Part shown: in pieces, positions 14,389 to 30,951 of the stretch
Layout of the letters: every line of letters starts with the position of its first letter
Position numbering within the stretch: position 1 is the stretch's first letter
Assembly (NCBI GenBank): GCA_030591505.1
Contig: JAUVAY010000010.1
Coordinates: 1 to 34,065 of the forward strand
From: Flavobacteriales bacterium
Lineage (GTDB): Bacteria > Bacteroidota > Bacteroidia > Flavobacteriales_D > JAHECK01
Direction: 5' to 3'
DNA: 34,065 bases
Program-made: the position numbers and the translations under genes
The notes under the pieces: generated by a model
Database searches by the model: none
What the model saw: only the letters and a program-made list of their open reading frames with translations
Told to the model about the DNA's origin: nothing

Positions 14389-16329
14389 ATGAAGAAAGGA
14401 TTACTTACTCTATTATTAATTTTTAGTGTTATAATAAATGGATATACATTTCAGTATAGTAAACCTGATCCATCAAAAATAGATGTCAAAATACCAGAAG
14501 TAGTTTTAAGTGATATTGAAATTAAAATTGAACTTAGTGGAGATTATATTGATTCTGGTGAGCTATTAATTCTCGGCTCCCCCCTAATTTATGTGAACAA
14601 TGAGATGATAGATCTTGTGGTTGATGATGGTCTTTTTTATATACCATATTTAATTAAAGATTCCGATACTGAATTGCATATTAAAATTGACACATGGGAA
14701 TTTAAGAAGGACGTTAACCCTATTCCATTATGGATGTCCATCATTCCTCCTCTTATTGCGATTCTATTAGCATTGGTTCTGCGCGAAGTCATTACTTCCT
14801 TATTTATTGGGATTTTTAGCGGAGCCTTGATCATGGGGCTTTATGGTGATGGCTTAAGCAGTATACTCCCCAGTTTTTTAAGTGTTGTGGATACTTATAT
14901 CATTAAAGCTATCAGTGATTCCTCCCACATTTCTGTTATCCTATTTAGTATGACCATCGCTGCTGTGGTAAGTGTTATTTCACGTAATGGTGGAATGCGT
15001 GGTGTCGTTAACCGATTAGCGCCTTATGCACATGATTCACGGAGTGGTCAATTGGTTATTTGGTTGATGGGAATACTCATTTTCTTTGATGATTATGCCA
15101 ATACACTCGTTGTGGGTAATACAATGCGACCTGTAGCTGATAGACTTAAAATCTCCAGAGAAAAACTTGCTTATATAGTGGACTCTACGGCTGCTCCCGT
15201 TGCTGCTATTGCTTTTATTACAACCTGGATAGGTGCTGAATTAGGATATATTGCTAGTGGTTTAGAAGAAATCTCACAAATCAGCGAAACACCTTATTCA
15301 ATTTTCTTAAACTCATTAGCTTATTCTTTTTACCCCATTCTTACACTGATCTTTATTTTGATGCTAATCTATAAGCAACGAGACTTTGGCTCAATGTATA
15401 CTGTTGAAAAAAATGCACGTGAACATGGAGTTATACATGTTGCACTGGAAGATGCCCCTGATAATAGTCTGAGCGAATTTGATGTAAAAGAAGGTGTTAA
15501 ACCCAAAGCTTATAATGCTATCGTTCCTATATTGGTTATCGTTTTAGGAGCAATTGCCGGTATGTTGTATACAGGTTATTCAGAAAATGTGTGGGCAGAT
15601 ACGGAGTTAGGTTTTTTCAGAAAACTCTCATCAACCATTGGCGCTGCTGATTCGTTTGTGGCGTTATTATGGTCTTCTGTATCTGGATTGTTTGTTGCGA
15701 TCGGAATGAGTATGAGTCAACGTATCTTAAACTTAGAAGAATCGATCAACACCTCCCTTGAAGGTTATAAAACTATGTTACCAGCTATGTTCATTCTTAT
15801 TCTTGCCTGGTCTTTAGCTTACGTAACTGAGGATTTGCATACAGCAAGTTATTTAAAGGGTTTGTGGAGTTCATCACTTTCTCCCGTTTTTATTCCTGCA
15901 GTTGTATTTATTCTTTCAGCCCTCGTTTCCTTTAGTACCGGTTCATCCTGGGGTACAATGGCAATTCTATACCCTTTAATGCTACCGGCAAGTTATCAGA
16001 TAGCTATTGAAAGCGGTATGAGTCCAGACGATGCTCTGTTGATCTTCTATAACGTTGTTTCAGTAATTCTAGCTGGGAGTGTATTTGGAGATCACTGCTC
16101 CCCTATCTCTGATACAACCATCTTAAGTTCTTTAGCTTCCTCCTGTAATCATATTGACCATGTACGAACGCAATTACCTTATGCACTAACAGTTGGAATT
16201 GTTTCCATTCTCTTTGGATCTATACCATCTGCAATGGGTGTTTCATCTTGGATTCTATTCCCTGTTTCGATTGCTATCTTGTATGCGATAATCCATTTTG
16301 TTGGGAAACCAACAAGAGGAAATAGTTAA
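14389..16329 (+). CDS. NhaC-family Na+/H+ antiporter with an N-terminal extracytoplasmic domain
   Basis: Multi-pass inner-membrane antiporter of 646 residues. The membrane part starts near residue 115 (WMSIIPPLIAILLALVLREV) and has the NhaC-family signatures FFDDYANTLVVGNTMRPVAD (near 230), VSFSTGSSWGTMAILYPLM (near 513) and FGDHCSPISDTTILSS (near 566). Before it lies a signal peptide (MKKGLLTLLLIFSVIINGYT) and about 95 residues of beta-rich sequence (IKIELSGDYIDSGELLILGS), probably periplasmic. Most NhaC proteins lack such a domain and are shorter (about 450-500 residues). Substrate could be Na+/H+ or an amino acid/metabolite exchange, since the family is broad. The stop codon overlaps that of the convergent MMPL gene within GTTAAC. 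Confidence 0.85.
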   Translation: MKKGLLTLLLIFSVIINGYTFQYSKPDPSKIDVKIPEVVLSDIEIKIELSGDYIDSGELLILGSPLIYVNNEMIDLVVDDGLFYIPYLIKDSDTELHIKIDTWEFKKDVNPIPLWMSIIPPLIAILLALVLREVITSLFIGIFSGALIMGLYGDGLSSILPSFLSVVDTYIIKAISDSSHISVILFSMTIAAVVSVISRNGGMRGVVNRLAPYAHDSRSGQLVIWLMGILIFFDDYANTLVVGNTMRPVADRLKISREKLAYIVDSTAAPVAAIAFITTWIGAELGYIASGLEEISQISETPYSIFLNSLAYSFYPILTLIFILMLIYKQRDFGSMYTVEKNAREHGVIHVALEDAPDNSLSEFDVKEGVKPKAYNAIVPILVIVLGAIAGMLYTGYSENVWADTELGFFRKLSSTIGAADSFVALLWSSVSGLFVAIGMSMSQRILNLEESINTSLEGYKTMLPAMFILILAWSLAYVTEDLHTASYLKGLWSSSLSPVFIPAVVFILSALVSFSTGSSWGTMAILYPLMLPASYQIAIESGMSPDDALLIFYNVVSVILAGSVFGDHCSPISDTTILSSLASSCNHIDHVRTQLPYALTVGIVSILFGSIPSAMGVSSWILFPVSIAILYAIIHFVGKPTRGNS

Positions 16330-18587
16330 CTGGATGTTGAATGTTTATCTCTAACAATAAACAATAAAAACGGTAGGATTATCAGACCGGTCAACAAAGC
16401 TAGAACTAAGGTTCCACTAACAAGTAAACCGATATAATAGGTTCCTAAAAAGCTAGAAAATAATAAAGAAATGAAGCCTCCAATAAGAATAAACGTTGTT
16501 AAAATTATCGCACGACCTGTAGACAAATAAGTATTTTTTAATGCATAGAGTGTGCTTTTATGTTCCTGCATCGCGAAGCGATATTTACTCATAAAATGAA
16601 TCGTATCATCGACCGATATTCCAAATGCAATCGTGAAGATAACCGAGGTTGAGATCTTTAGGTCTATTCCCATAAACCCCATCAATCCAGCGATTCCAAT
16701 TAAAGGAATGATATTTACCAATAATACGACTGATATCATTTTAAATGATCGGAAAATAAACCCAACAAGCACTGCTATTAATCCAAATGCCGCTAATAAA
16801 CCTAATAAGAGATTACTTGATAACACAGCATTACTCCTATCGATAAGGTAGGCAGATCCTGTAAGTGTATAATCAAAATAGTCTTCAAGACCTTCTTCTT
16901 TCATATACAGTTCAAGTAAAGCATCTTTCTCAATAAAATACTCACTTCCATAATCCTCCACTCTTCCATTGACCCTTGCTACACCAGCTTTTCTATCGAC
17001 AAACGCTTTCATTTCTTTTGCAAAACGCTTCTTTTTAAAAGACTTTGTAATACTTTTTAACTCCTTTTCAGAAGGTAATTTAAAATAGGCAACATCCCCA
17101 TTGTGTAGGTCGAGGTTAACCTTCTTGATCATCATTGATGGAGAAAGTAAATATTCTACATTGTACTCTTCAATTAAGAATTTGTCAAGCTTATTAAATC
17201 GTTGTAAAATTTCATAAGAAAAAAGATCATCATCCCTATCTTTCAACTCTATCGACATCTCAAAAGGGCGCATCGCCACAAAATTGTCATTAAAGTAAGC
17301 GACTTCATTAAGCAATGGACTATCTGCTGGAATATCCTCCATCAATTTATTCTTTTGATCTATCTGGCTTAATCCAATGAAAGCTATAATTACAACAACT
17401 CCAGTATAAACCAATAATCGTTTACCATTACGGATAGTATATACAAAAGCATGACTCAATCGCATCTTCCAAAAATCGGATTGTACTACCTTCGAAAAGT
17501 AGCGTTCGGGACTTAAGGTTAGAAAAGACATAAAGGCAGTAAATGTTACAAAGAAGGTAACCATTACTCCTAAGGCTGAAACGAGTCCAAACTCCTGAAT
17601 AATCGGCACTTTAACAAAGTACAAGGAAGCAAAACCAATCGCCGTTGTTAAAGATGTTAAAAGTGTAGCAATCCCAACATCATTCATTGTTTTTAAAATA
17701 GCTTTTCTCTTAGCCATGCCTTCTCTTTTGAGGAACAGAAATTTTGTATAGAGGTGTACTACATCAGAAATTCCTACAATGAAGATCAAGGTTGGCAATA
17801 CCACCAGCATAATATCAAGAGGTTTATTGAAAATAGTCATAATACCTATCGTCCAAACAGCAGATACCGCCACCAATAAAAGGGGTATAAAGACCGACCA
17901 GAAATTTCGATAGGTCAAAAAGAGAAATATTACAACTAAAAAAGCTCCAATTGACGAGAATTTGAGTAATTCTTCGGTCATTAAATTAACATAAAATGAT
18001 TGAGCAACCGCTCTTCCAGCCATATGATATTCCTGAAAATCATAATGACTTAATACTTCATTAACCGATACGACTAGGGAATCACAGCCCTTTTTACTTA
18101 ATCGTTCTTTATGTTTAATAATTAAACTGATGTTCTTTCCATCTCTTGAAAAAAACACGGGTGTTAGCATAGGATCATTTAGTACTTTCTCTGCATCTCT
18201 TTGTAAGGAAGCATCATCCGAAATTCGTAATAGTTTTTTAGGTATAAGATTGCCACTCAGGGGTTCTCTGCTAATTCTTTTTAATGAAGTGCCACCGAGA
18301 ACATCATTCACGTAATTCAGCTTTTTAAAATCAGCGATCAAGTGCTTGATCTCTTTCAAAAATGCCGTATCCATCACCCCTTCCTCTTCAACAATACCCA
18401 ATACTAGAAAATCATTATCCGTTCCAAATCGATCCCGGAAATCTTCAAAGAAGTCTACTTCATTACTTGATGCCGGGAAGAACTTCTCAAATTCATAGTC
18501 TACACGAGCTTTTGAAGCAAAGTACCCGAAAATAATGGTGAGAATAAATATTGCAATCAAAGTAAATACTGCCCTTCTATCCGTCAT
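16326..18587 (-). CDS. MMPL/RND superfamily transporter
   Basis: Inner-membrane permease of 753 residues with the duplicated MMPL plan: one TM helix, a large periplasmic loop, a block of five or six helices, then the same again. The two repeats carry matching helix-4 motifs: FIVGISDVVHLYTK near residue 270 and GISVDDTIHFMSKY near 662. Their acidic residues are the likely proton relay. The start is MTDRRAVFTLIAIFILTIIFG, with FEKFFPASSNEVDFFEDF after it, typical of the sterol-sensing/hopanoid-exporter-like branch. Substrate is likely a lipid or other hydrophobic molecule, but that is inference. There is no adjacent membrane-fusion protein or outer-membrane channel. The gene is convergent with the NhaC-type gene and divergent from the OmpW/PorT-like gene at 18706. 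Confidence 0.85.
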   Translation of the reverse strand: MTDRRAVFTLIAIFILTIIFGYFASKARVDYEFEKFFPASSNEVDFFEDFRDRFGTDNDFLVLGIVEEEGVMDTAFLKEIKHLIADFKKLNYVNDVLGGTSLKRISREPLSGNLIPKKLLRISDDASLQRDAEKVLNDPMLTPVFFSRDGKNISLIIKHKERLSKKGCDSLVVSVNEVLSHYDFQEYHMAGRAVAQSFYVNLMTEELLKFSSIGAFLVVIFLFLTYRNFWSVFIPLLLVAVSAVWTIGIMTIFNKPLDIMLVVLPTLIFIVGISDVVHLYTKFLFLKREGMAKRKAILKTMNDVGIATLLTSLTTAIGFASLYFVKVPIIQEFGLVSALGVMVTFFVTFTAFMSFLTLSPERYFSKVVQSDFWKMRLSHAFVYTIRNGKRLLVYTGVVVIIAFIGLSQIDQKNKLMEDIPADSPLLNEVAYFNDNFVAMRPFEMSIELKDRDDDLFSYEILQRFNKLDKFLIEEYNVEYLLSPSMMIKKVNLDLHNGDVAYFKLPSEKELKSITKSFKKKRFAKEMKAFVDRKAGVARVNGRVEDYGSEYFIEKDALLELYMKEEGLEDYFDYTLTGSAYLIDRSNAVLSSNLLLGLLAAFGLIAVLVGFIFRSFKMISVVLLVNIIPLIGIAGLMGFMGIDLKISTSVIFTIAFGISVDDTIHFMSKYRFAMQEHKSTLYALKNTYLSTGRAIILTTFILIGGFISLLFSSFLGTYYIGLLVSGTLVLALLTGLIILPFLLFIVRDKHSTSS

Positions 18588-18705: not shown

Positions 18706-19362
18706 ATGAATAAAATGATAAAGAAAGCAAGTTACTTATCAAGTATACTATTTCTGCTAATTTCACTTTCTATTTCGGCACAAACACATATAGGTGTTTT
18801 TGCCGGATTAAACAGCAGTAAACTATCTGGGGATGCTCCAATAAATTCTTCATATAAAAGTTTGATCGGAGCAAATGTTGGTGCTTTAATTGATATCAGT
18901 ATAAGCGATAATTTTATGTTGAGTGCACAACCATCCTATTCACAAGAAGGCACGAGTATTTCTTATATTTTACCTGGAACTGATGAAGAGATCGATAGCC
19001 TTAGCCTACGATTAAATTATTTTTCTATACCACTATTATTCAAAGCCTATACAGCTAATCAGCGCTTTTATGCTATTGGGGGACTTGAATTTGGGGTTTT
19101 GATGAATAGTTTTCAAAAAATAGATGATGTAAAAAGTGATATTCCTGTAGACATTAGTAGCTGGAATCTTGCCTTTCACTTTGGAGCTGGATTGAAAATT
19201 CCCTTAGGCATACCCAATTTGTTTATTGAGTTAAGATATACACAAGGATTAGAAAACCTTACTGATACCCCCGTTGAAGACAATATTATCCCAAGAGTCA
19301 AGACTTCAGGACTAAAGATAATAGCAGGTATTGAAATTCAACTTAAGAAAAACTCAAACTAA
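18706..19362 (+). CDS. Outer-membrane beta-barrel protein (porin/PorT-like family)
   Basis: Predicted eight-strand outer-membrane barrel of 218 residues. The signal peptide ends near LSISAQ. The mature protein begins THIGVFAGLNSSKLSGDA, the usual opening of the Bacteroidota 'porin family protein' group, then alternates strands and loops: SYKSLIGANVGALIDI, LSAQPSYSQEG, LRLNYFSIPLLFKAY and FYAIGGLEFGVLM. It closes with LKIIAGIEIQL. It has no enzymatic motifs. These proteins are usually small surface barrels without known cargo. The next gene begins 6 bases after the stop, so the two are probably one transcript. Confidence 0.75.
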   Translation: MNKMIKKASYLSSILFLLISLSISAQTHIGVFAGLNSSKLSGDAPINSSYKSLIGANVGALIDISISDNFMLSAQPSYSQEGTSISYILPGTDEEIDSLSLRLNYFSIPLLFKAYTANQRFYAIGGLEFGVLMNSFQKIDDVKSDIPVDISSWNLAFHFGAGLKIPLGIPNLFIELRYTQGLENLTDTPVEDNIIPRVKTSGLKIIAGIEIQLKKNSN

Positions 19363-19368
19363 TCGACC

Positions 19369-20313
19369 ATGAAGAAGGTACTGTATATACTACTACTTAG
19401 CTTTTTACACTCCTCTATTCTCTTTGGTCAAAACGAAGATGTAATACCTATAAAAAAAGTTCCAAATCTAAATGGTCATGTTTTCCCTTCTTTCGGGCAA
19501 TTTAAAAGTTCTTTCATAAATACAAATTTGGGTGTTGTAATTGGTGTCGGAAAAACATCAGAGCTTCAATTACCAGGACTCACTATTGGTGAGACTGAAC
19601 TGTTCTCTTTTAAAGGGGAAATTTTATTTGCAGACGTAAATATTAACTACAAACAACGATTTACACCAAGACTTTCATTATACATTTCCTTACATGTTGC
19701 TGGCAGGATTGGTACGGATATATCGACTATGCTTGTAGATGGTGTAAATTCAATAAGTGGTGGTGAAATTGGATGGCTTATTAATATTATCAAAAAAGAA
19801 AAATTTAACTTATCAAGCTCCATTGATGTATCAAAATCCACTGGGAATTTCATCAATGTGTCAGAATATTTGGAGGAATTATTAAATAATAATCCGTATC
19901 CCAGCATCTACAAAAAAACACCTGCTATGGGGGTTGGTATTGGTCTTCAAGGAGCTTATGCCTTTTCTCCAACATTTGGAGCTCAATTTCATTCTGAATT
20001 CACCTATGGTGAATCATTTGTAAGGAACAAAACACGCACTTATTTTACAATGGGAATTGCTGGGGATTGTGATTTTAACCCAAAATATAATGTGCCCATT
20101 AATTTTGGATTTGGTTATAATATTTCATCCTCACCAGAGGTTGTTTTACACGATGGAGGAGTTTCTAATTTATTCTTTGGAAAAATAACTTATTCTGGTT
20201 CAACAGATTTTGAATTAGGTGCACAATTCTCCTATTACGACGTAGAAATCAAAAGCTCTGTGTCTAAACCATATGTGAGCAAAATTGTTCTCGTACTACA
20301 ATTCTATTTCTAA
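19369..20313 (+). CDS. Predicted outer-membrane protein, family not recognised
   Basis: Exported protein of 314 residues: signal peptide MKKVLYILLLSFLHSSILFG followed by QNEDVIPIKK. The mature part is rich in amphipathic strand patterns (LGVVIGVGKTSELQL, LFADVNINYKQRF, LSLYISLHVAGRIG, AMGVGIGLQGAYAF, INFGFGYNIS, DFELGAQFSYYDV). It ends VLVLQFYF, a terminal aromatic as in outer-membrane barrels. I recognise no specific family. It shares a likely transcript with the smaller barrel gene just upstream, so the two may work together, but nothing shows how. The gene ends 46 bases before the convergent end of the DUF4249 operon, with no obvious terminator hairpin between. Confidence 0.65.
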   Translation: MKKVLYILLLSFLHSSILFGQNEDVIPIKKVPNLNGHVFPSFGQFKSSFINTNLGVVIGVGKTSELQLPGLTIGETELFSFKGEILFADVNINYKQRFTPRLSLYISLHVAGRIGTDISTMLVDGVNSISGGEIGWLINIIKKEKFNLSSSIDVSKSTGNFINVSEYLEELLNNNPYPSIYKKTPAMGVGIGLQGAYAFSPTFGAQFHSEFTYGESFVRNKTRTYFTMGIAGDCDFNPKYNVPINFGFGYNISSSPEVVLHDGGVSNLFFGKITYSGSTDFELGAQFSYYDVEIKSSVSKPYVSKIVLVLQFYF

Positions 20314-20359: not shown

Positions 20360-22000
20360 TTACTCAACGCTAAATGACTTTTCTTCAATAGCTATATTTC
20401 CATTTTCATCAATTGATTGAAGCAAAACAACATATTCTCCTTTTAATAAAGGAGCTTCAGTAGATATCGTATTTTGATTTGCTACAGTAGATAAATCAGC
20501 TATCCATAAAATAGTATTATCAAAGGAATTGTATTGATCAGTATCTTGAATTTTATTTCGGGGAAAATTATAAAAATCATAATTAATGTACTCAGCAGAT
20601 TCTGGAAAATTCATTCCGGCAAAATCATTTTTCCGAGAAAATATATTGAGAATTCCACCATAGGTAATCCCTCCATGAATATAAGGTGTAATAATAACTT
20701 CAAAATTATTGATTCGCCTTGGGTCCAATGCTAAAATATGCTCTACATCATCAACTGGAATCCAATCTATCATTATTAACGGCTCATATAATTGTAACGA
20801 AGCTTGTGGTCCATATAAAACAATCTTTCTTTTGCCTTTCTCCACCTTAACTTTCACCCAACTGGGCAGGTCAGTAAAATACTGTGATAAACTATCCAAG
20901 GCAACATAGGAATCGAAATCAACACTTTTATAAGGGTCTCCATAAAAGGCTTGATAAGTTTGTAGGTTTTCATTAAGGCTATCCGTATTCTGATAAAGCC
21001 TTTTAAGTTGATAGGTATTTACCATTTTTAACAAGGCCTCTTTTTCTGAATCGTTTACAGTGAATTCTGGTACTTTTAAGTCAATTTTTCTTGAACAAAA
21101 ATCCTGATCGATCAAAATTTCTACTTCTTCATTCTCAAGAGAAGCGGCGATGGCAAATAGTTCAATCCTACCGTATCTATGTGGTAATGCAATATTGAAA
21201 TCCCCAACTGAATCGCTTAAAACAGCGATAAAATCTTTTTCATTTTCTAAGTGAATGTTAACTTTATGATAAGGTACTTTAGTTTGATCACTTACTCTAA
21301 TTACTTTTCCACTTAGTGTGATACCTTTCGTTTCTGGATAGAATTTCAATTCAGTATAAGCTACAGTTCTTCCATTGCTTAATTGATTGTTAGAAGCTGA
21401 AGAAATAGCTGGAATAATACTCAAACTCGTTTTCGATAGCCCCAAGCGTGTTGAATCAAAGGGCATAAGAATTTGTTCTCCTGGGTTGTAACTTACTTTG
21501 TCTAATGATAAAGTAGCACTATCATCAATTTTATTTATGAGCTCGGCTGAACTGTCTATTAGAGAATCATTGACGAACATCAACTCATCAGTAAAAGGAT
21601 TGATCACTTTTAATCGCACATAAGCATAATCGCTGACATCTCCATTCCGCATCCATTTACTATAGGCACGTAAGAAATAATAGCCGCTTAGAACATCAGG
21701 TGAAACACTTAGCTCACCTTCAAATTTATTTAATTTGGGCTTAAGTTTAGCCTGACTTATTTTTTGCCCATTAGGCAAAATTAATTCAACATATACTACT
21801 TCACTTAGCGTACTTTCATTTTGAGAGATTGATAGATTACCACTAAACTGTATTGACTCCCCACTAATGTATACAAAGCGATCCGTCAATAGAACAACTT
21901 GCTCACTAGGGTAATTGAGTTGTGCAAATGAAAAAACTGGTAGATACAAGCCCACAAGCAACAAAACAAATATTCGATATGTAAAACTCATATTTCTCAT
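20360..22000 (-). CDS. Secreted MG2-like protein with a degenerate plug-like C-terminus, last gene of DUF4249 operon
   Basis: Exported protein of 546 residues. The start is the ATG at 22000, which overlaps the stop of the preceding gene as TAATG; an open frame extends 20 codons upstream but lies inside that gene. The signal peptide ends near VFSFAQ. Residues 28-130 resemble the macroglobulin MG2 domain found in many Bacteroidota surface proteins (VLLTDRFVYISGESIQFSGN, LSGYYFLRAYSKWMRNGD). Residues 230-275 look like a carboxypeptidase-regulatory-like beta-sandwich. Residues 395-465 (PLIMIDWIPVDDVEHILAL, INNFEVI, GGITYGGILNIFSRKN) resemble the end of a TonB-dependent receptor plug, but no barrel follows. 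It is probably periplasmic or surface-exposed, serving the receptor encoded upstream; the function is not known. Confidence 0.7.
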   Translation of the reverse strand: MRNMSFTYRIFVLLLVGLYLPVFSFAQLNYPSEQVVLLTDRFVYISGESIQFSGNLSISQNESTLSEVVYVELILPNGQKISQAKLKPKLNKFEGELSVSPDVLSGYYFLRAYSKWMRNGDVSDYAYVRLKVINPFTDELMFVNDSLIDSSAELINKIDDSATLSLDKVSYNPGEQILMPFDSTRLGLSKTSLSIIPAISSASNNQLSNGRTVAYTELKFYPETKGITLSGKVIRVSDQTKVPYHKVNIHLENEKDFIAVLSDSVGDFNIALPHRYGRIELFAIAASLENEEVEILIDQDFCSRKIDLKVPEFTVNDSEKEALLKMVNTYQLKRLYQNTDSLNENLQTYQAFYGDPYKSVDFDSYVALDSLSQYFTDLPSWVKVKVEKGKRKIVLYGPQASLQLYEPLIMIDWIPVDDVEHILALDPRRINNFEVIITPYIHGGITYGGILNIFSRKNDFAGMNFPESAEYINYDFYNFPRNKIQDTDQYNSFDNTILWIADLSTVANQNTISTEAPLLKGEYVVLLQSIDENGNIAIEEKSFSVE

Positions 22001-23202
22001 TAATAAGGCCAATAATCTGGTTTTTCTGTTACTCCGCCTAAAACAGGACAAAGAACACAATCATCTACCATTGTAGCGAATTGCCAGACTCCATTATCAG
22101 AATAAATAAATGCTGGGTACTCACTTACTGGTATTTCAATAAATCCAAACCTCAAGCCATTGATTATACAAACAGTTGGAAGATCTAATTCTAACTCATC
22201 AATAGGCCATATAAAGATTCTTTTCTTACTTACATTATTTGCCTGAAAAAAGCCTAACACCTCTTTTTCTGGTGTATTGACATTTGTTAAATTACCTTTT
22301 ACAGCAAGAGGTTGAGAAGTATATAATCCCGCTTCTTGTGAAAGGTTTACTCTTAGTTTATCCCAATAATAATAAGCGTTTTCACTTAAGGCCATTTGCT
22401 CTATCATTAAGCTATAAAGTATCTTTAAGCGATAGGTGTTATTTCTAATATAATTTAATGGGTACTTGTCTAAGGCATTTTCTGATAAATTCCCTGTTGA
22501 TAATGTATATATGTCATTTACAACAACCGTTTTCCAACAATACATATAAGAGTAATCAGCTGGAACTACCTGATGAAGTCCTGTTGCATCATAGTAAAAC
22601 TCGCGGGGATACTCAGAATGATATTCCCATGTTTCCGTCAATTTCCATCGATAAAATTTGCTATCCATCTCATCCGCAGAAAAATCAGTATACATCTGAA
22701 TTCCATTCAAGGTATATTCCGGATCATTCGTGGGTATATCCTCAATTTCAAAATATACATCTCCTACTTCATCTGGCCCCAATGGCATCTGATCAAAAGC
22801 TGATTCCAGAATTTCACCATTAGGGAGATGGACGTTTATTTTAAATGAGCGACCAGGAATTAACTCACTATTATTCATCCAAACTCTATACTCCCCATCT
22901 TCATATTGAGTTAATGGAAAATTCTGTCCCAAATCATCAATTATCATTAGTTCGCAATTATTTACGGGAACATATTCGGCTCTACTAACATCAGAAGCAA
23001 TTGACACTTTTACATTTTGCCACCCTTCAATGGAGCTTACACTTCCTTCAATAACATACTTATTAATAGCTTCTGCATTAACATCAGGATTAAAGGGCTT
23101 TATACAACTCCCCAAAAGAATGAACACGAGTAAAAAGCTAATCCATTTGATATGATTCAGCTTAGCTTTTATAATTTGATATGTTATCCTTTTTAATATC
23201 AT
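22000..23202 (-). CDS. DUF4249 lipoprotein, copy 2
   Basis: Predicted lipoprotein of 400 residues. The ATG at 23202 overlaps the upstream stop as TAATG. A lipobox (FLLVFILLGSC) places the lipidated residue at C33. The mature protein starts CIKPFNPDVNAEAINKYV, as in copy 1. DUF4249 hallmarks are an N-terminal beta-sandwich (IEGSVSSIEGWQNVKVSIAS, YEDGEYRVWMNN), an aromatic-rich middle with MYCW, and the family's C-terminal Cys pair before a Gly-Gly and a KPDYW ending (DCVLCPVLGG). Copy 2 is nearly identical to copy 1 over most of its length; differences cluster in the signal peptide and in about 50 residues before the Cys pair. Family function is unknown; members usually sit beside TonB-dependent receptors. 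Confidence 0.85.
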   Translation of the reverse strand: MILKRITYQIIKAKLNHIKWISFLLVFILLGSCIKPFNPDVNAEAINKYVIEGSVSSIEGWQNVKVSIASDVSRAEYVPVNNCELMIIDDLGQNFPLTQYEDGEYRVWMNNSELIPGRSFKINVHLPNGEILESAFDQMPLGPDEVGDVYFEIEDIPTNDPEYTLNGIQMYTDFSADEMDSKFYRWKLTETWEYHSEYPREFYYDATGLHQVVPADYSYMYCWKTVVVNDIYTLSTGNLSENALDKYPLNYIRNNTYRLKILYSLMIEQMALSENAYYYWDKLRVNLSQEAGLYTSQPLAVKGNLTNVNTPEKEVLGFFQANNVSKKRIFIWPIDELELDLPTVCIINGLRFGFIEIPVSEYPAFIYSDNGVWQFATMVDDCVLCPVLGGVTEKPDYWPY

Positions 23203-24368
23203 TAATATGGCCAATAGTCAGGTTTATTAGTCACTCCTCCTAATACAGGACAAAGAACACAATCATTGATCATTGTATTAAGGGTTGGTATGCTATTCAC
23301 AGAATAAACATATGCTGGATACTCACTGGCTGGTATTTCAAGGTAACCAATATTTGGTCTCAATTCATTGATGACACATACAGTTTGTAAGTCTAATTCC
23401 AACTCATCAACAGGCCATACAAAAACTCTTTTCTTGCTTACATTGTTTGCCTGAAAAAACCCTAAAACCTCTTTTTCTGGCGTATTGACATTTGTCAAAT
23501 TTCCTTTTATCGCTAGTGGCTGTGATGTATATAATTCTCCTTCCTGAGAAATGTTTAATCTTAATTTATCCCAATAATAATAGGCGTTTTCACTTAAGGC
23601 AATTTGTTCAATTAATAAGCTATAAAGTATTTTTAAACGATAAGTATTGTTCCCTATATAATTTAATGGATACCTATCTAATGCATTTTCTGATAAGTTA
23701 TTTGTTGCGAGCGTATAAATGTCATTTACAATCATCGTTCTCCAACAATACATAAAAGAATAGTCAGGTGGAAAAACATGATGAAGCCCCGTTTCATCAT
23801 AATAATACTCAATAGGATACTCAGAATGATATTCCCATGTTTCTGTCAATTTCCACCGATAAAATTTGCTATCCATTTCATCCGCAGAAAAATCTGTATA
23901 CATCTGAATTCCATGCAAAGTATATTCTGGATCATTCGTTGGTATATCCTCCATTTCAAAATATACATCCCCTATTTCCTCAGGCCCAGATGGCATCTCA
24001 TCAAATCTTGATTCCAGTATTTCACCATTAGGTAGAAGGACGCTTATTTTAAATGAGCGACCAGGAATTAATTCGTTATTATTCATCCAAACCCTATACT
24101 CCCCATCTTCATATTGAGTTAATGGAAAATCCTGTCCCAAATCATCAATTATCGTTAATTCGCAAATATTTACAGGAATATATTCGGCTCTACTAACATC
24201 AGAAGCTATAGATACGCTTACATTTTGCCATCCTTCAATGGAGCTTACACTTCCCTCAACAACGTACTTATTAATCGCTTCTGCATTAACATCAGGATTA
24301 AAGGGCTTTATGCAACTCCCTAAAAGAATCAATACGAATATGAAGCTAGCCCATTTATAGTGCATCAT
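23202..24368 (-). CDS. DUF4249 lipoprotein, copy 1
   Basis: Predicted outer-membrane lipoprotein of 388 residues. The start is the ATG at 24368, 14 bases inside the end of the receptor gene; a TTG start further upstream is less likely because it would add a non-signal extension. The lipobox is VLILLGSC with C19 lipidated, followed by IKPFNPDVNAEA. The domain layout is as in copy 2: beta-sandwich, aromatic middle (SFMYCWRTMIVNDIYTLA), and a closing DCVLCPVLGG and KPDYWPY. Its position between the receptor and copy 2 suggests a surface partner of the receptor, comparable in place to SusD next to SusC, though I see no SusD features (no TPR-like helical repeats). Ligand unknown. Confidence 0.87.
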   Translation of the reverse strand: MMHYKWASFIFVLILLGSCIKPFNPDVNAEAINKYVVEGSVSSIEGWQNVSVSIASDVSRAEYIPVNICELTIIDDLGQDFPLTQYEDGEYRVWMNNNELIPGRSFKISVLLPNGEILESRFDEMPSGPEEIGDVYFEMEDIPTNDPEYTLHGIQMYTDFSADEMDSKFYRWKLTETWEYHSEYPIEYYYDETGLHHVFPPDYSFMYCWRTMIVNDIYTLATNNLSENALDRYPLNYIGNNTYRLKILYSLLIEQIALSENAYYYWDKLRLNISQEGELYTSQPLAIKGNLTNVNTPEKEVLGFFQANNVSKKRVFVWPVDELELDLQTVCVINELRPNIGYLEIPASEYPAYVYSVNSIPTLNTMINDCVLCPVLGGVTNKPDYWPY

Positions 24369-27120
24369 AATTCCCCAATTTAAATAGCCATGTAACCATA
24401 AATATCGGCACTCCAATTACGGAATACTGATATCCTTGAATCTTGCCATTAACTTCCTCAAAATATACATAGTATGCATTCTTTCTTGCGGTGAGGTTAT
24501 ACACACTAAAATTTAATGTGCTGTGCAAGAATTTTTCTTTTTTCAGGTTTCCTTCAATGGTTAAAGAGATATCCGTTCTAAAATAATCTGGAATTCTAAA
24601 TTCATTTCTATTTGAATAATCCAAATGAAGAATCTCATCATAATAATAGAAAGAAGTAGGAAAAGATGCTGGTTTACCTGTCTGATAGGTGACTGTCGTG
24701 CTGAAAGATACTCTTTTAGTCAGGTGATACATTACTATAGCGTTCACCACATGAGGAATATCAAAATTAGAAGGGTATTGCTTACCATTATTTATTTTAT
24801 CCCAATCATTCTCCCCATCTACAGTCACTAATGACCTGGAAAAAGTGTAGGCCAACCAAAGGTCCATCTTCATCCATGATTTTTTGATTAAAAACTCAGC
24901 TCCATAGCTTGTTAACTCACCTTGTAAAACAGTCGTTTCCACTAATGGAGTACTTAAAAAATCAGCACCATCTTTAAACTCTGTATAATCCTTGGCTTTT
25001 TTGTAAAACCCTTCAATGCTTATTTCCCAGTCTCCTCTTGGAATGGTTCTGAACATACCCAGAGAGAATTGATTTGCTCTACTTGGTACCAAATGATAAT
25101 CTGCTAATTTCCATTGAGTATTGGGTGACAAAGAGATCGTATTATTAAGCATAAACATACTTTGATGCATCTGATTGAATGCAAATTTCAAACTACCGTT
25201 CTCATCTGTCTGATAATTAATTGCTAATCTGAATTCAGGAAAACTATACCATTTGATAGCTTCGCCTGAGTTAAAACTAATAGAATCATTTATTGTGCGT
25301 AGATCTATTGGTCCGTTATCATAGTAGGTATACACTTCTTGAGGTCCAAAAGCAGAGTACATCGATATCCTGAAGCCAGCGTTCAATGAAAGAAGTGGCG
25401 TTAATTCTAGATTATCAGAAACATAGATCGCTGCTTCTAAGCCTTGCTCCTTTCCAAGATCAAGCGGCATTTTATTAGAATTATCTCCATAAGGCAAGAC
25501 CTCTCCTCTATTCAATTGATACCAGTTAGTATTCAATCCAAATTCCAATGTGTTTTTTCGACTAAATACTTTTTTGAAATCGGCCGAAAATTCATATTGT
25601 TCAATTTTAAAATTATGTTCATACTCAGCATTTTCAACCTGTTCATCAATGGTTTTAAACTGGTATTGCGATGCACTAACTGAAAAATCGCCTCGAAATG
25701 CAGGAGCAAAAACATGACCGAAGGAGGCTGATAATCCACTATTAGAGTACCAATAGCTATTGATATTAGAAAACTTGAAATAATCCTGACTGTGATAGCC
25801 AAAAACATTTATCTGAGTGTTTGGCAAATCGTAATCGAGAGAGGCTGTCAGGTCATAAAAAGAAGCCTCTGAGTTCTGAATATCATAATTCTGAATTTGT
25901 CGAAGTATCCAATCTGAATAAGAAGATCTGAAATTGACCAAGAATGAGGCGGTATCTTTTTTTATTGGTCCTTCAATGGTGATGTTAGCAGTTGCCGGAC
26001 TAACACCTCCATGCGCTGTATAATTCTTTTTATTACCTGTACGTGCATTGATATTAAAAATGGATGAAAGTCTCCCTCCATACTTAGAAGGGATATAGCC
26101 TTTATACAGAGAGAAATCCTGAATCACATCGGCATTAAATGCAGGAAAAAAACCAAACAAATGGGAGGTATTGTAAACGGTAATTTTATTAAAGTAGAAA
26201 GCATTTTGATCAAATCCACCTCCACGAACATTCAGCCCTGCAGCTCCTTCACCAACACTAACAACTCCGGGCAACATCTCTGTGACTTTAATGATATCAC
26301 TTTCCCCCATCATCGTTGGCAGTTCTTTGATAGCTTTTACGTTTAGTTTTTCAAGGCCGGGTTCCTTTTCACGAATATCCATTTGCTTATCTCCATAGAT
26401 CTGAACTTCATCTATTTCATAATTTTCTCTTTCTAAAGCTATTTCAAAGCTCCCTTCAGACGCTACTTCGATCTGACAACTAAGCTCTTTTCTTCCAAGG
26501 CAATCAAATTTTGCAGAAAATGTACCTACGGGCAGACTTATCTGAATATTTCCATTTATATCAGATGCAGCACCTTTCTGTAATTCTATGATATATAAAG
26601 TGGCTCCTTCGATGGGTTCACCGGTAGAAACATCAACGACCTTTCCTTTTATATTAATTTGTCCACCTACATTTTTATAAGTGGTCTTTCCTATTTTAAT
26701 CTTTACCCTATCCGCTTTTCTTCCTTTAATAAATCCCGAAGGTTCTGTAATAACTTGTTGTGATTCATTATAAACAGACTCTTGTAAAATGGAATAGTCA
26801 GGAAGTTGTTCAATTAATTCTTCATCTTTAATAATCACAAATTGATCTCCCCATTGTATAACACTAAGCTCATCATTGCTTATTGCTTGTTGGATAATAC
26901 TAAGAACATTCAAATTTTCAGCATTGATCGTTACAAAAATGTCCTTTACCCATTCTTGTTTATACACAACTTTACAAGCGCATTCGTCCTCCAATTCACT
27001 AATAAAATCAGTAAACTCCATATTGGTGGCGGAAATGCTTATTAAACTTCTATCACTTATTTGTGCATTTAGGTTTGAAGCAAAAAACAGAAACAATATG
27101 TAAAGTCTTACCCTATTCAT
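24355..27120 (-). CDS. TonB-dependent receptor with STN and carboxypeptidase-regulatory-like domains
   Basis: Outer-membrane receptor of 921 residues for energy-dependent import. The signal peptide ends near SNLNAQ. Residues 30-100 form an STN (secretin/TonB short N-terminal) domain (FISELEDECACKVVYKQEW, VLSIIQQAISND). Residues 153-232 are a carboxypeptidase-regulatory-like sandwich (NIKGKVVDVSTGEPIEGATL). The plug spans about 255-350 (LPTMMGESDIIKVTEMLPGV, AAGLNVRGGGFDQN, YIPSKYGGRLSSIFNI). The rest is the barrel, with KAFNP-like and YTFSRSLV strands, ending in FMVTWLFKLGN. The start overlaps the upstream gene by ATGA. STN domains usually signal to a FecR-type anti-sigma factor, but none is encoded here. 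Substrate is unknown; siderophore, peptide or glycan are all possible. Confidence 0.9.
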   Translation of the reverse strand: MNRVRLYILFLFFASNLNAQISDRSLISISATNMEFTDFISELEDECACKVVYKQEWVKDIFVTINAENLNVLSIIQQAISNDELSVIQWGDQFVIIKDEELIEQLPDYSILQESVYNESQQVITEPSGFIKGRKADRVKIKIGKTTYKNVGGQINIKGKVVDVSTGEPIEGATLYIIELQKGAASDINGNIQISLPVGTFSAKFDCLGRKELSCQIEVASEGSFEIALERENYEIDEVQIYGDKQMDIREKEPGLEKLNVKAIKELPTMMGESDIIKVTEMLPGVVSVGEGAAGLNVRGGGFDQNAFYFNKITVYNTSHLFGFFPAFNADVIQDFSLYKGYIPSKYGGRLSSIFNINARTGNKKNYTAHGGVSPATANITIEGPIKKDTASFLVNFRSSYSDWILRQIQNYDIQNSEASFYDLTASLDYDLPNTQINVFGYHSQDYFKFSNINSYWYSNSGLSASFGHVFAPAFRGDFSVSASQYQFKTIDEQVENAEYEHNFKIEQYEFSADFKKVFSRKNTLEFGLNTNWYQLNRGEVLPYGDNSNKMPLDLGKEQGLEAAIYVSDNLELTPLLSLNAGFRISMYSAFGPQEVYTYYDNGPIDLRTINDSISFNSGEAIKWYSFPEFRLAINYQTDENGSLKFAFNQMHQSMFMLNNTISLSPNTQWKLADYHLVPSRANQFSLGMFRTIPRGDWEISIEGFYKKAKDYTEFKDGADFLSTPLVETTVLQGELTSYGAEFLIKKSWMKMDLWLAYTFSRSLVTVDGENDWDKINNGKQYPSNFDIPHVVNAIVMYHLTKRVSFSTTVTYQTGKPASFPTSFYYYDEILHLDYSNRNEFRIPDYFRTDISLTIEGNLKKEKFLHSTLNFSVYNLTARKNAYYVYFEEVNGKIQGYQYSVIGVPIFMVTWLFKLGNYDAL

Positions 27121-27809
27121 AATGTACTTAAATAATCAACGATCGTTTGCAAACCAGCATCATCTGCTTTTTGAATTTTCATACCACTACTTTTCAGCCA
27201 TCTCTTAAGATCTGACTGACTATCTAGTGGGTACAGCTTTATTAATGCTTTATTATTCTTAATAACGAAGTAGTTATCTTCTTTATAAAGCCACGTCCTT
27301 TTTTTTAAATTAGAAAACTTACTTCGATTATTCTCAGAGCCCGTTCCTCCATTTAGGCTACGCGTATAATGGATGAGGATTTTATAATCCTTATTTTCAA
27401 TAACTTGAAAGATTCGATAACCTTCATTCTGCCATGGAAGCACTTCAAAATACTTAGTCCCAAGATAAAAGTAATTTACATTGGCCAGTGGAAGCTCAAT
27501 TATTTTTGTAGCATTGATGTCATCTTTAAATGATAATAACACCTTTTGCCCATATACATCATAATTTAGTTGCTGCGCTTTAAAAAGCTGATTTCGAAGT
27601 AGCAAATCACCTATAAAAAACCTCTCAGAAACAAAAAATTGAGTTCCGTCAACGTTCCCTCTGTATACTCCCGAAAACACCCTGCCATTATATAATTCAG
27701 GGTTCATATTATAAACTTCGCTTAATTCACTTTTTAAATCTTGTGCATTCAATGAATTCACAGATGGAAGCAAAAGTATAACAAGTATAATCGTTGTGCG
27801 AAAACTCAT
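27117..27809 (-). CDS. Exported protein of unknown function, first gene of DUF4249 operon
   Basis: Secreted protein of 230 residues; I do not recognise the family. I start it at ATG 27809, giving the signal peptide MSFRTTIILVILLLPSVNSLNA. The longer frame begins with a TTG at 27848 that belongs to the promoter box at 27846-27853. The mature part has several strand-like stretches (RVFSGVYRGNVDGTQFFVSE, YGQKVLLSFKDD, YFEVLPWQNEGYRIFQVIEN). A Lys/Arg-rich segment follows (SKFSNLKKRTWLYKEDNYFV), then a helical end (SDLKRWLKSSGMKIQ, LQTIVDYLSTL). No lipobox. The stop overlaps the receptor start as ATGA, so the two are translationally coupled and probably act in one system, perhaps in the periplasm. 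Confidence 0.7.
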   Translation of the reverse strand: MSFRTTIILVILLLPSVNSLNAQDLKSELSEVYNMNPELYNGRVFSGVYRGNVDGTQFFVSERFFIGDLLLRNQLFKAQQLNYDVYGQKVLLSFKDDINATKIIELPLANVNYFYLGTKYFEVLPWQNEGYRIFQVIENKDYKILIHYTRSLNGGTGSENNRSKFSNLKKRTWLYKEDNYFVIKNNKALIKLYPLDSQSDLKRWLKSSGMKIQKADDAGLQTIVDYLSTL

Positions 27810-28116
27810 TCGTAAAATTACATTCAAGGGCCTTTTTTCTATAACCAAATGTAGCGAATAAAAGGGTTGTTTAATTACCGTTTATCATAATCAAATAATT
27901 ATTATTTATCTTAAAATAATCACTGTTTTTTTTATAAATGTTTTGTAAAAAGCAATTCATACCTCACCTCATATCAATGTAGTTTTAAAATGAGTATAAC
28001 TAAAAAACACTATTTTAGTCATTAAACTACCTTACTTATTTACCAATTGGCAATTTATTTACGACTGATTTAATTGGTCAACCAATAGATTGTTATTGTA
28101 TGAAACAAACCATATT
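27810..28116. other. Divergent intergenic region
   Basis: About 306 very AT-rich bases between the DUF4249 operon (leftward) and the propeller gene (rightward). It holds the operon's -7 box and, near 28073-28086, an imperfect palindrome (AATTGGT-CA-ACCAATA) that could be an operator. I see no exact TAnnTTTG on the plus strand. No RNA gene or open frame is evident. Confidence 0.4.
27846..27853 (-). promoter_or_regulatory. Putative -7 box of the DUF4249/receptor operon
   Basis: On the minus strand TACATTTG matches TAnnTTTG exactly, ending 36 bases before the ATG at 27809. The likely leader is about 30 bases. The nearest TTG upstream is too far to serve as the -33 element, so recognition may need an activator. 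Confidence 0.45.
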
Positions 28117-30951
28117 ATGAAAAAACATGTTACTGTATTCCTATTTTTAATTTTAAATTCTTTTCTCCTTACATCTCAAGATCTTTCTTTATCATGGGTA
28201 AATACCTATAATGGTGGTCATTCACAAGGCGTGGCTGATGAAAATATTCTAGACTTAATTACAGACGCCAATGGTAATCTTATTATAGTTGGATTTTATA
28301 CAGACACTATGGATCTGGATCCAGGTATTGATACGCTAACCTATATTTCTTATAATGAGGCAAGAGAGTTATTTATTATGAAAATGGATTCTTTGGGAAG
28401 TTTAATATGGGTTAAAACGGTTGTAGGCAATAGTGCTGAAACTGTTTATTCTTTGGACCTAGACTCTTCTGGTAATATTTATATGGCCGGTTATTATTGG
28501 GGTACAGTAGATTTTGACCCCGGTTCTGGAGTTGAAAGTAAAATAGCTGCAGGGAATTCAGGTGATAGTTTCATCCTTAAACTAGATGAAAATGGAATGT
28601 TCGTTTGGGTAAAGGTAAATGGTAGTTTAGGAAATGATGGTTGTACTGATTTATTTATCGATAATAATGAATACATCTATGCTTTAGGTAGCTATAAAGA
28701 CTCTATTGATATGGACCCTGGTGATAACATAAGTATGCTTGTATCTCCAAATGTGTATAATAATTACCTTCTAAAACTTGATCTTGATGGAAATTATATT
28801 TGGGCGAAAAACATTACTGAAGGGGGATCTCCTCCTTTTGCGAAAATGTCTCATGATTCAAATGGAAATATCTATTTCGGTGGAAAAAGCTACGGAACGA
28901 TAGATTTTGATTCAGATAGTAATGAAGAAATAGTTGTATCAGATAATTCTGACATTTGTGTTTTAAAAGTTGATTCGAGTGGGAACTTTTTATGGGTAAG
29001 GGTCATGGGAGGAAGTCACAGTGATCGATGTCGAGATATTGTTTGTGATAACAATGATAATGTTATAATCACTGGTGATTATAGAGGTAATTCTGATTTA
29101 GACCCAGGACCTGGTGTTCTTACTCTTCCCGGAATTCAAAACGGATATGAGGTCTTTGTGGCAAAACTTGATTCAACTGGTGATTTACTCTGGGCCAGCC
29201 CAATTTATGGCCCTAGTAGTGAATTCTGCTATTCAGTTGATGTAGATGAGAATAATAATGTTTATACAACAGGTGCATTTCATTCAACTACCGATTTTGA
29301 TCCTAGTTCAGGAGTATATAATATAACCGCTTCTTATTTTGATTGGTTTATTTTAAAATTATCAGAATCTGGCCAACTAATTTGGGTTGAGACCTTTGGT
29401 GATGAAGAATATGAAAGTGGTGGGTACATACATGTTGATAATGATAATATATATGTAACAGGAGGATATGACGATCCTTTCACAATTTATAATAATGATA
29501 GCAGTTTTGCAGAAGTTCAGGGTATTGTTGATATCTTTTTAGCAAAATTCAAGCAATGTTCAGCAACTGATGTCGCACCAGTTCCCCTTATTTCAAACTT
29601 AGCGGAATTAACATTTAGTTGCAGTTTGGAAGAGCTTTCACCTCCTCAAGCTTTGAATAGTTGTGGTGATCCGATAATTGGAACTACGAATGCCGTTTTT
29701 CCTATATCAAGTATAGGTACAACGGTAATTGAATGGACCTACAGTAATTCTTTTGGTACAAGTATTATTCAGGAACAAAATATAATTATTCTTATTGATG
29801 ATGTAGCTCCACTTCCTACTTTAACTAATTTAAGTGATATAATTGCCCAATGTTCTGTTGAAGAACTTACGTATCCCAGTGCTATAGATAATTGTTCTAG
29901 TGTGAGTGTTAGTCATGATGTTATGCTGCCAATTGTCTTGCAGGGATCAACTACCATTACCTGGACCTATACAGATGAAAGCGGAAATATCAGCTCTCAG
30001 ACTCAAACCGTTACCATTGATGATACTGAGGCTCCTGTTCCTAATTTAAATGATTTAAATGATATCGTAAGTGAGTGTAGTTTAGATGAAACACCTGTAG
30101 CACCAACAGCTATAGATAATTGCTCAGGAGATATTATTAGCGGAACAACAGATGCCATATTCCCAATTACAACATTAGGAAGTACTAATATCACATGGAC
30201 CTATATTGATGCTAATGGAAATGAAAGCACACAAATACAAGTTATTATTATTGAAGACTCCCAACTTCCGGTTCCCGAGCAAGAAATACTCATTGATCTT
30301 TTAAGTGAATGTTCAATTGAAATGCCTATTTCACCCACTGCCTTTGATAGTTGTTCCGGTCAAACAATTGTTGGTATAAGTGATGTTACCTTTCCAATTA
30401 CCACTATTGGAATAACAACGATAATCTGGTCATTTGACGACGGAAATGGAAATATAGCAAGCCAAACACAAAATGCAACAATAAGCCCCATTGATAATTC
30501 TTATGAAACATCACAAAATGTAATAAGTGCTAACGCTGAAGGATATACCTACCAATGGATCGACTGCAATAATGGAAATCAGGCAATTGAAGGAGAAAAC
30601 GATCAAAGCTATACAGCTAATACTAATGGAAGTTTTGCAGTGATAATTAGTAATGAGGATTGTTCTGTAAGTTCAGACTGTGTTGAAATTATTTTTAACT
30701 CCATAGATGAATTAGCATTATCAGGTCTCAGTATTTACCCTAATCCTGCATCAGATTTTATTTTTATAGAAAGCAAAATAGATGGTATAATAGATCTTGA
30801 AATTCTTGATCTAAAAGGGAAAATAATTGATCAAATACAAATTCAAGGGAAGCAAAATGAAATTTCAATAAGCGAGCTTGCAACAGGAAACTATATCTTA
30901 AAGGCAACACATAATAATAGTGTGAAACATATCAAGTTTGTGAAGTTATAG
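28117..30951 (+). CDS. Large secreted protein: seven-bladed propeller, four HYR-like domains, T9SS type A sorting domain
   Basis: Exported protein of 944 residues. I use ATG 28117 (signal peptide MKKHVTVFLFLILNSFLLTS); a TTG nine codons earlier is in frame but spoils the signal peptide. Residues 20-470 hold seven repeats of about 55-60 residues of the SBBP beta-propeller type, each with a D-x-x-GN-x-Y/I strand, a glycine turn and often an acidic DFDPG loop (VDFDPGSG, IDMDPGDN, SDLDPGPG). Four HYR-like Ig modules follow (about 490-800), each with one Cys pair (SCSLEE/NSCG, QCSVEE/DNCS, ECSLDE/DNCSG, ECSIEM/DSCSG) and a TWTYxDxxGN turn. The C-terminal type A sorting domain has LSIYPNPASDFIFIE, LEILDLKGKII and LATGNYILK. 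Probably a surface adhesin or structural protein. Confidence 0.88.
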   Translation: MKKHVTVFLFLILNSFLLTSQDLSLSWVNTYNGGHSQGVADENILDLITDANGNLIIVGFYTDTMDLDPGIDTLTYISYNEARELFIMKMDSLGSLIWVKTVVGNSAETVYSLDLDSSGNIYMAGYYWGTVDFDPGSGVESKIAAGNSGDSFILKLDENGMFVWVKVNGSLGNDGCTDLFIDNNEYIYALGSYKDSIDMDPGDNISMLVSPNVYNNYLLKLDLDGNYIWAKNITEGGSPPFAKMSHDSNGNIYFGGKSYGTIDFDSDSNEEIVVSDNSDICVLKVDSSGNFLWVRVMGGSHSDRCRDIVCDNNDNVIITGDYRGNSDLDPGPGVLTLPGIQNGYEVFVAKLDSTGDLLWASPIYGPSSEFCYSVDVDENNNVYTTGAFHSTTDFDPSSGVYNITASYFDWFILKLSESGQLIWVETFGDEEYESGGYIHVDNDNIYVTGGYDDPFTIYNNDSSFAEVQGIVDIFLAKFKQCSATDVAPVPLISNLAELTFSCSLEELSPPQALNSCGDPIIGTTNAVFPISSIGTTVIEWTYSNSFGTSIIQEQNIIILIDDVAPLPTLTNLSDIIAQCSVEELTYPSAIDNCSSVSVSHDVMLPIVLQGSTTITWTYTDESGNISSQTQTVTIDDTEAPVPNLNDLNDIVSECSLDETPVAPTAIDNCSGDIISGTTDAIFPITTLGSTNITWTYIDANGNESTQIQVIIIEDSQLPVPEQEILIDLLSECSIEMPISPTAFDSCSGQTIVGISDVTFPITTIGITTIIWSFDDGNGNIASQTQNATISPIDNSYETSQNVISANAEGYTYQWIDCNNGNQAIEGENDQSYTANTNGSFAVIISNEDCSVSSDCVEIIFNSIDELALSGLSIYPNPASDFIFIESKIDGIIDLEILDLKGKIIDQIQIQGKQNEISISELATGNYILKATHNNSVKHIKFVKL

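Follow-up and report, generated by a model that had tools for sequence, protein, structure and literature searches.

The window analyzed here, the whole stretch of 34,065 nucleotides from a Flavobacteriales bacterium, harbors a cassette of five overlapping genes on its minus strand, referred to as g1 to g5 in reading order. The first, g1 (27117..27809), delimited by its open reading frame and start codon, encodes a 230-aa exported protein without a named family. It is followed by g2 (24355..27120), which encodes a 921-aa TonB-dependent outer-membrane receptor recognized by its Pfam CarbopepD_reg_2 and Plug domains, and by two copies of a long-type DUF4249 surface lipoprotein gene, g3 (23202..24368) and g4 (22000..23202). 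The last gene, g5 (20360..22000), encodes a 546-aa exported protein with an MG2 domain and no barrel. The first-pass annotation of this DNA had listed the same five genes, and its coordinates, strand and junctions all match the sequence: an ATGA overlap of 4 nt between g1 and g2, 14 nt between g2 and g3, and TAATG at the two remaining junctions. The g2/g3 overlap becomes 11 nt if the second ATG (24365) is taken as the start of g3. The two TAATG junctions do not count independently: g3 and g4 arose by tandem duplication and share a 3′ end, which makes one junction a copy of the other.

Because the genes on both sides, at 19369-20313 (+) and 28090-30951 (+), run on the opposite strand, the five-gene cassette most likely forms its own transcription unit. 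A candidate Bacteroidetes -7 promoter motif, TACATTTG (TAnnTTTG; 27846..27853, minus strand), was found by pattern match alone 44 nt upstream of the g1 ATG; in the promoter and terminator scan, sigma-70-type promoters were not in excess over shuffled sequence. The product of the adjoining gene at 28090-30951 is secreted and combines HYR and SBBP repeats with a type IX sorting domain. On the other side lies an RND/MMPL-type exporter of the HAE3 family (16326-18587, minus strand), followed on the other strand by two outer-membrane-type proteins, one of the OMP beta-barrel family (18706-19362) and one with no family match (19369-20313).

Domain composition of the cassette proteins

The receptor g2 matches CarbopepD_reg_2 (2.5e-13) and Plug (8.9e-4), and both domains are present in 9/9 of its relatives. 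Its layout comprises an STN-like N-terminus, CarbopepD_reg_2, a TonB-box-like EVQIYG, the plug and the barrel, with the TonB-box-like motif preceding the plug in the close relatives as well. The best solved relatives are SusC homologues, matched in the N-terminal region only. In the first-pass label of an STN receptor, the receptor assignment is confirmed by CarbopepD_reg_2 and Plug, and the STN part is weak, with no Pfam STN match in g2 and matches in 2/9 relatives (best 0.0015).

Both lipoproteins proved to be DUF4249 members, as had been proposed, with Pfam PF14054 matched twice (E=3.1e-27 for g3 and E=7.6e-28 for g4). Long-type DUF4249 proteins of this kind measure ~390 aa and possess four invariant cysteines besides the lipid cysteine, together with a C-terminal KPxFW-type motif; g3 displays a ...LLGSC lipobox and a C-terminal C-x2-C...KPDYW. 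No solved structure related to DUF4249 was detectable by sequence profile. The two genes are the sole DUF4249 genes found in the window's genome and are sisters in the DUF4249 tree, with 83% protein identity, 84% nucleotide identity and a dS of 0.62. Judged by these sequences, g3 and g4 are recent tandem duplicates, and their dN/dS of 0.155 is consistent with purifying selection. The tree contains at least 7 independent tandem duplications of this kind, seen as sister pairs in the window and in L033, L034, L076, L095, L097 and L108.

The protein encoded by g1 has an apparent type I signal peptide (...SLNA|QD) and, as the first-pass annotation had it, belongs to no recognized family: neither Pfam nor NCBIfam gave a match, and the same libraries yielded no convincing family for its relatives. 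Its AlphaFold model is beta-rich with two C-terminal helices (mean pLDDT 82), and a Foldseek search with this model returned no significant PDB match. Every route to a name, through Pfam, NCBIfam, PDB sequence profiles or Foldseek, failed. In the relatives examined, a homologue immediately precedes the receptor gene. At ~3838-4540 of locus L076 (genome G204), stop codons interrupt g1, while the receptor, two DUF4249 genes and g5 look intact, a possible loss of g1 as read from the sequence. Remote g1 relatives were also seen away from any receptor (L092, L098-L104, L119); one of them, at 4316-5083 of L100, has a TonB protein gene directly after it.

The description of g5 as an MG2-like protein holds for its N-terminal part (8.4e-05, though below the Pfam cut-off) and has to be extended by a weak plug-like C-terminus. 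MG2 was found in 14/17 relatives and Pfam Plug in 2/17 (best 0.0018), and profile matches include the complement C3 beta chain (2e-4) and a SusC plug (0.008). The domain order is MG2, a CarboxypepD_reg-like region and the plug-like end, with the barrel absent. The middle region resembles the same region of g2 (hhalign 7e-6); the match of the C-terminus to the g2 plug is statistically weak (hhalign 0.013). Because MG2 is followed by a region matching g2 and then by weak but repeated plug support, g5 resembles the periplasmic portion of a receptor in which MG2 replaces STN and the barrel is absent. Its structure model is of low confidence (pLDDT 66), and Foldseek matched this model many times to complement C3 with TM-scores up to about 0.24, which we read as no more than support for beta-sandwich domains of the MG type in g5. 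Like bacterial alpha-2-macroglobulin, g5 has MG2 and weak similarity to complement/macroglobulin chains; unlike it, g5 is 546 aa long, ends in a plug-like region and lacks the CxEQ thioester motif, with 0/33 g5 proteins matching C[GLAV]EQ. Trapping of the alpha-2-macroglobulin type was ruled out, given the absence of this motif. At 22-6609 of L077, a long DUF4249 gene is adjoined by three MG2-plug paralogues in a row.

Conservation of the cassette across Bacteroidota

The five genes represent a real and ancient gene set across Bacteroidota, composed of a receptor, a lid (in two copies here) and two exported partners. With the receptor alignment as query we retrieved ten public genome loci; DUF4249 as query retrieved no related loci. 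A gene of g1 length directly precedes the receptor wherever the upstream side is present in the sequence, and g5 is present in all ten loci except L033, whose contig ends inside the second DUF4249 gene. Whole-genome searches extend the cassette across the phylum: the order g1, receptor, DUF4249 (1-2 copies), g5 recurs amid unrelated flanks, with L072, where g5 stands before DUF4249, as the single order variant.

A profile search of 297 Bacteroidota genomes (close homologues defined as ≥80 bits for g1 and ≥200 bits for g5) placed 27/27 close g1 and 29/29 close g5 homologues beside a long DUF4249 gene, that is, within 9 kb on the same strand, percentages that are partly circular because the profiles were built partly from cassette members. 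Conversely, 34 of the 39 long DUF4249 genes have both g1 and g5; four stand alone (three in G246, one in G337) and one lies at a contig end. The full set is present in 23 of these genomes. Genus-only queries are free of this neighborhood bias and provide the unbiased evidence: all ~550-600-aa g5 matches whose neighborhood was read lie beside DUF4249, and 6/9 weak non-self g1 matches fall in cassettes. Only remote g1 and MG2-plug relatives lie away from long DUF4249. Pairwise distances among the four families correlate at r 0.84-0.93, against a permutation maximum of 0.33, a correlation that includes shared species history. The first-pass annotation had raised the prospect of homologues of the first and last genes lying mostly away from DUF4249 receptors, which these counts contradict; its proposal of one functional unit that includes both genes is strongly supported by the phylum-wide order and co-occurrence.

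That the cassette is moreover passed on and duplicated as a whole is shown by repeated cassettes in single genomes, with two complete ones in tandem in L108 and three in genome G281. The loci with tandem or repeated cassettes are L108, L067, L068 and L091, the second L067 cassette being without its own g1. In the window's lineage, the cassette was perhaps horizontally acquired. In Flavobacterium-like genomes (L069, L070, L071, L076, L096, L097, L108, L110), it adjoins pnp and/or an rpoD-family sigma gene, a neighborhood that constitutes a fixed chromosomal address and was confirmed in two representatives. A search of 150 genomes from the window's order found close homologues of g1 and g5 only in the window genome and in its congener Ww168, whose cassette has a single DUF4249 gene. 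Such a presence, in 2/150 order genomes, is patchy; the nearest receptor relatives were seen in MAGs labelled Bacteroidales.

From its gene content, the receptor-DUF4249 set is modular, because shorter DUF4249 types pair with the receptor alone or with the receptor and a g5-like protein. In locus L073, a 774-aa receptor is accompanied by a DUF4249 of the short type (260 aa), and neither g1 nor g5 is present. Mid-size DUF4249 proteins (~345-370 aa) accompany the receptor alone in L113, L114, L116 and L118, and the receptor plus a g5-like protein in L111, L112, L115 and L117. Among the loci read, g1 was found only with the long type.

Comparison with described systems

The first-pass annotation regarded DUF4249 as lacking a known function and the system as undescribed. 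For the receptor-DUF4249 pair this holds only in part: a 2023 preprint by Price et al. (doi 10.1101/2023.03.17.533168), whose title proposes ‘lids’ and which is cited in a 2024 paper, proposed that the DUF4249 protein BT2173 works with the TonB-dependent transporter BT2172 (PMC11003636). According to that paper, disruption of BT2172 and of BT2173 in B. theta has similar effects, and their operon is conserved across dozens of genera (PMC11003636). The cassette shares with this pair the adjoining DUF4249 and receptor genes, the proposed joint work and the wide conservation. It differs from BT2172/BT2173, described as a two-gene pair, in that g1 and g5 complete a fixed unit of four parts, and it is set apart from what is described there by long DUF4249 proteins with four conserved non-lipid cysteines and by duplicated lids. 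For the four-part unit, the claim of novelty holds within the literature searched, which took in a minority of the subscription papers and no bioRxiv preprints: neither the unit nor g1 or g5 was found described there. PMC11003636 alone was relevant in the literature on DUF4249, PF14054 and MG2/plug combinations, where the PF14054 matches are apparently Plasmodium gene numbers.

The plan resembles SusCD and the levan and dextran utilisomes, in which a receptor with a carboxypeptidase-reg-like domain and plug, a surface lipoprotein lid and two further components are encoded together (PMC7618045). In those systems, however, the lid is SusD, whereas that of the cassette is DUF4249, and the additional components are surface lipoproteins (a glycan-binding protein and a glycoside hydrolase) instead of non-lipidated exported proteins with no enzymes (PMC7618045). 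The first-pass annotation had described a SusCD-like arrangement devoid of SusD, glycan enzymes, sigma/anti-sigma genes and an inner-membrane transporter, which is correct for the window cassette. Neither Pfam nor NCBIfam matched SusD in any of its proteins, and ORF inspection of the cassette neighbors, which were partly family-scanned, revealed no linked glycan-active enzymes or regulators. A glycan (SusCD/PUL) reading was rejected, as SusD is absent and no linked glycan genes were seen. XusABC and BtuBG use lipoprotein families different from DUF4249, and to our knowledge neither has a g1- or g5-like part. As in the cassette, the receptor of XusABC, for xenosiderophores (PMC13142918), and that of BtuBG, for vitamin B12 uptake (PMC10404256), is encoded with a surface lipoprotein partner.

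Proposed function of the cassette

We consider it probable, with room for doubt, that the cassette is a single operon encoding an uptake machine of the outer membrane, in which g1 and g5 are periplasmic partners. In such a machine, g2 would be the TonB-driven barrel in the outer membrane, and the surface DUF4249 lipoprotein would bind the substrate and cap the barrel as a lid, a part of the model for which analogy and the published pair speak. The slightly different copies g3 and g4 would place two lids on offer. Signal peptides, no lipid anchor, no recognized type IX sorting tail and the receptor-like composition of g5 indicate that g1 and g5 most likely work in the periplasm. There, g5 may dock on the periplasmic face of the receptor, in the manner of a receptor N-terminus minus its barrel, and g1 may be a further partner that takes or passes on the substrate or stabilizes the complex. 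Since neither enzymes nor an inner-membrane transporter are linked to the cassette, we favor a small cofactor, a chelate or a peptide over a polysaccharide as the likelier substrate. Counting against this model are the four lone long DUF4249 genes, which show that the lid can occur without g1 and g5, and the broken g1 in L076.

In a rival account, the receptor-DUF4249 pair imports on its own and g1 and g5 serve envelope maintenance, as a chaperone or in barrel/lid assembly that keeps the receptor folded. Short and mid-size DUF4249 genes with a receptor but neither g1 nor g5 (L073, L113, L114, L116, L118) suggest a core independent of them, and the folds of MG2 and carboxypeptidase-reg-like domains are generic beta-sandwiches. 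Yet g1 and g5 closely track and co-vary with long-type DUF4249, which argues for a specific rather than a general role, and we hold this account to be unlikely. The machine might instead work outward: rather than import a nutrient, a complex linked to TonB would deliver proteins to the cell surface or retain them there. Linked catabolic enzymes, regulators and an inner-membrane transporter are missing, as such a role would allow, and MG-type domains bind proteins in other systems. Against it, the known Bacteroidota pairs of receptor and surface lipoprotein, SusCD, BtuBG and XusAB, are importers (PMC7618045, PMC10404256, PMC13142918), and with no thioester motif in the 33 g5 proteins, trapping of the alpha-2-macroglobulin type falls away; we regard an outward direction as very improbable. 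The smallest share of our belief goes to a sensor, in which the STN-like N-terminus of the receptor would signal ligand capture and g1 or g5 would be its unusual signaling partners in the periplasm. It would account for two otherwise unexplained exported partners and for the STN-like region itself, recognized by Pfam in 2/9 relatives, but inspection revealed no sigma/anti-sigma gene adjoining the cassettes read, and the rpoD-family gene beside the Flavobacterium-type cassettes is of the housekeeping type, not an ECF factor.

A bolder form of the uptake machine, which we advance tentatively and think doubtful, is a class of TonB-dependent machine with a dedicated periplasmic module, made of a barrel-less, receptor-like g5 and a g1 of possibly new fold. 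These two proteins could convey substrate leaving the receptor into the periplasm, or could couple the receptor to TonB. We know of no Bacteroidota receptor system described with such a module.

In Bacteroidota, where DUF4249 systems are common, it is the receptor-lid pair that has so far drawn attention. The conservation described here turns a suspected two-part uptake device into a conserved four-part one: one major DUF4249 subtype occurs as a fixed four-part set, and two new candidate subunits are thereby named. The genomes and loci that carry the four-part set offer material for testing these subunits, and the set prompts one to ask what use a TonB-dependent receptor would have for dedicated periplasmic partners. 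That the lid has been duplicated repeatedly and independently suggests that selection acts on what it recognizes.
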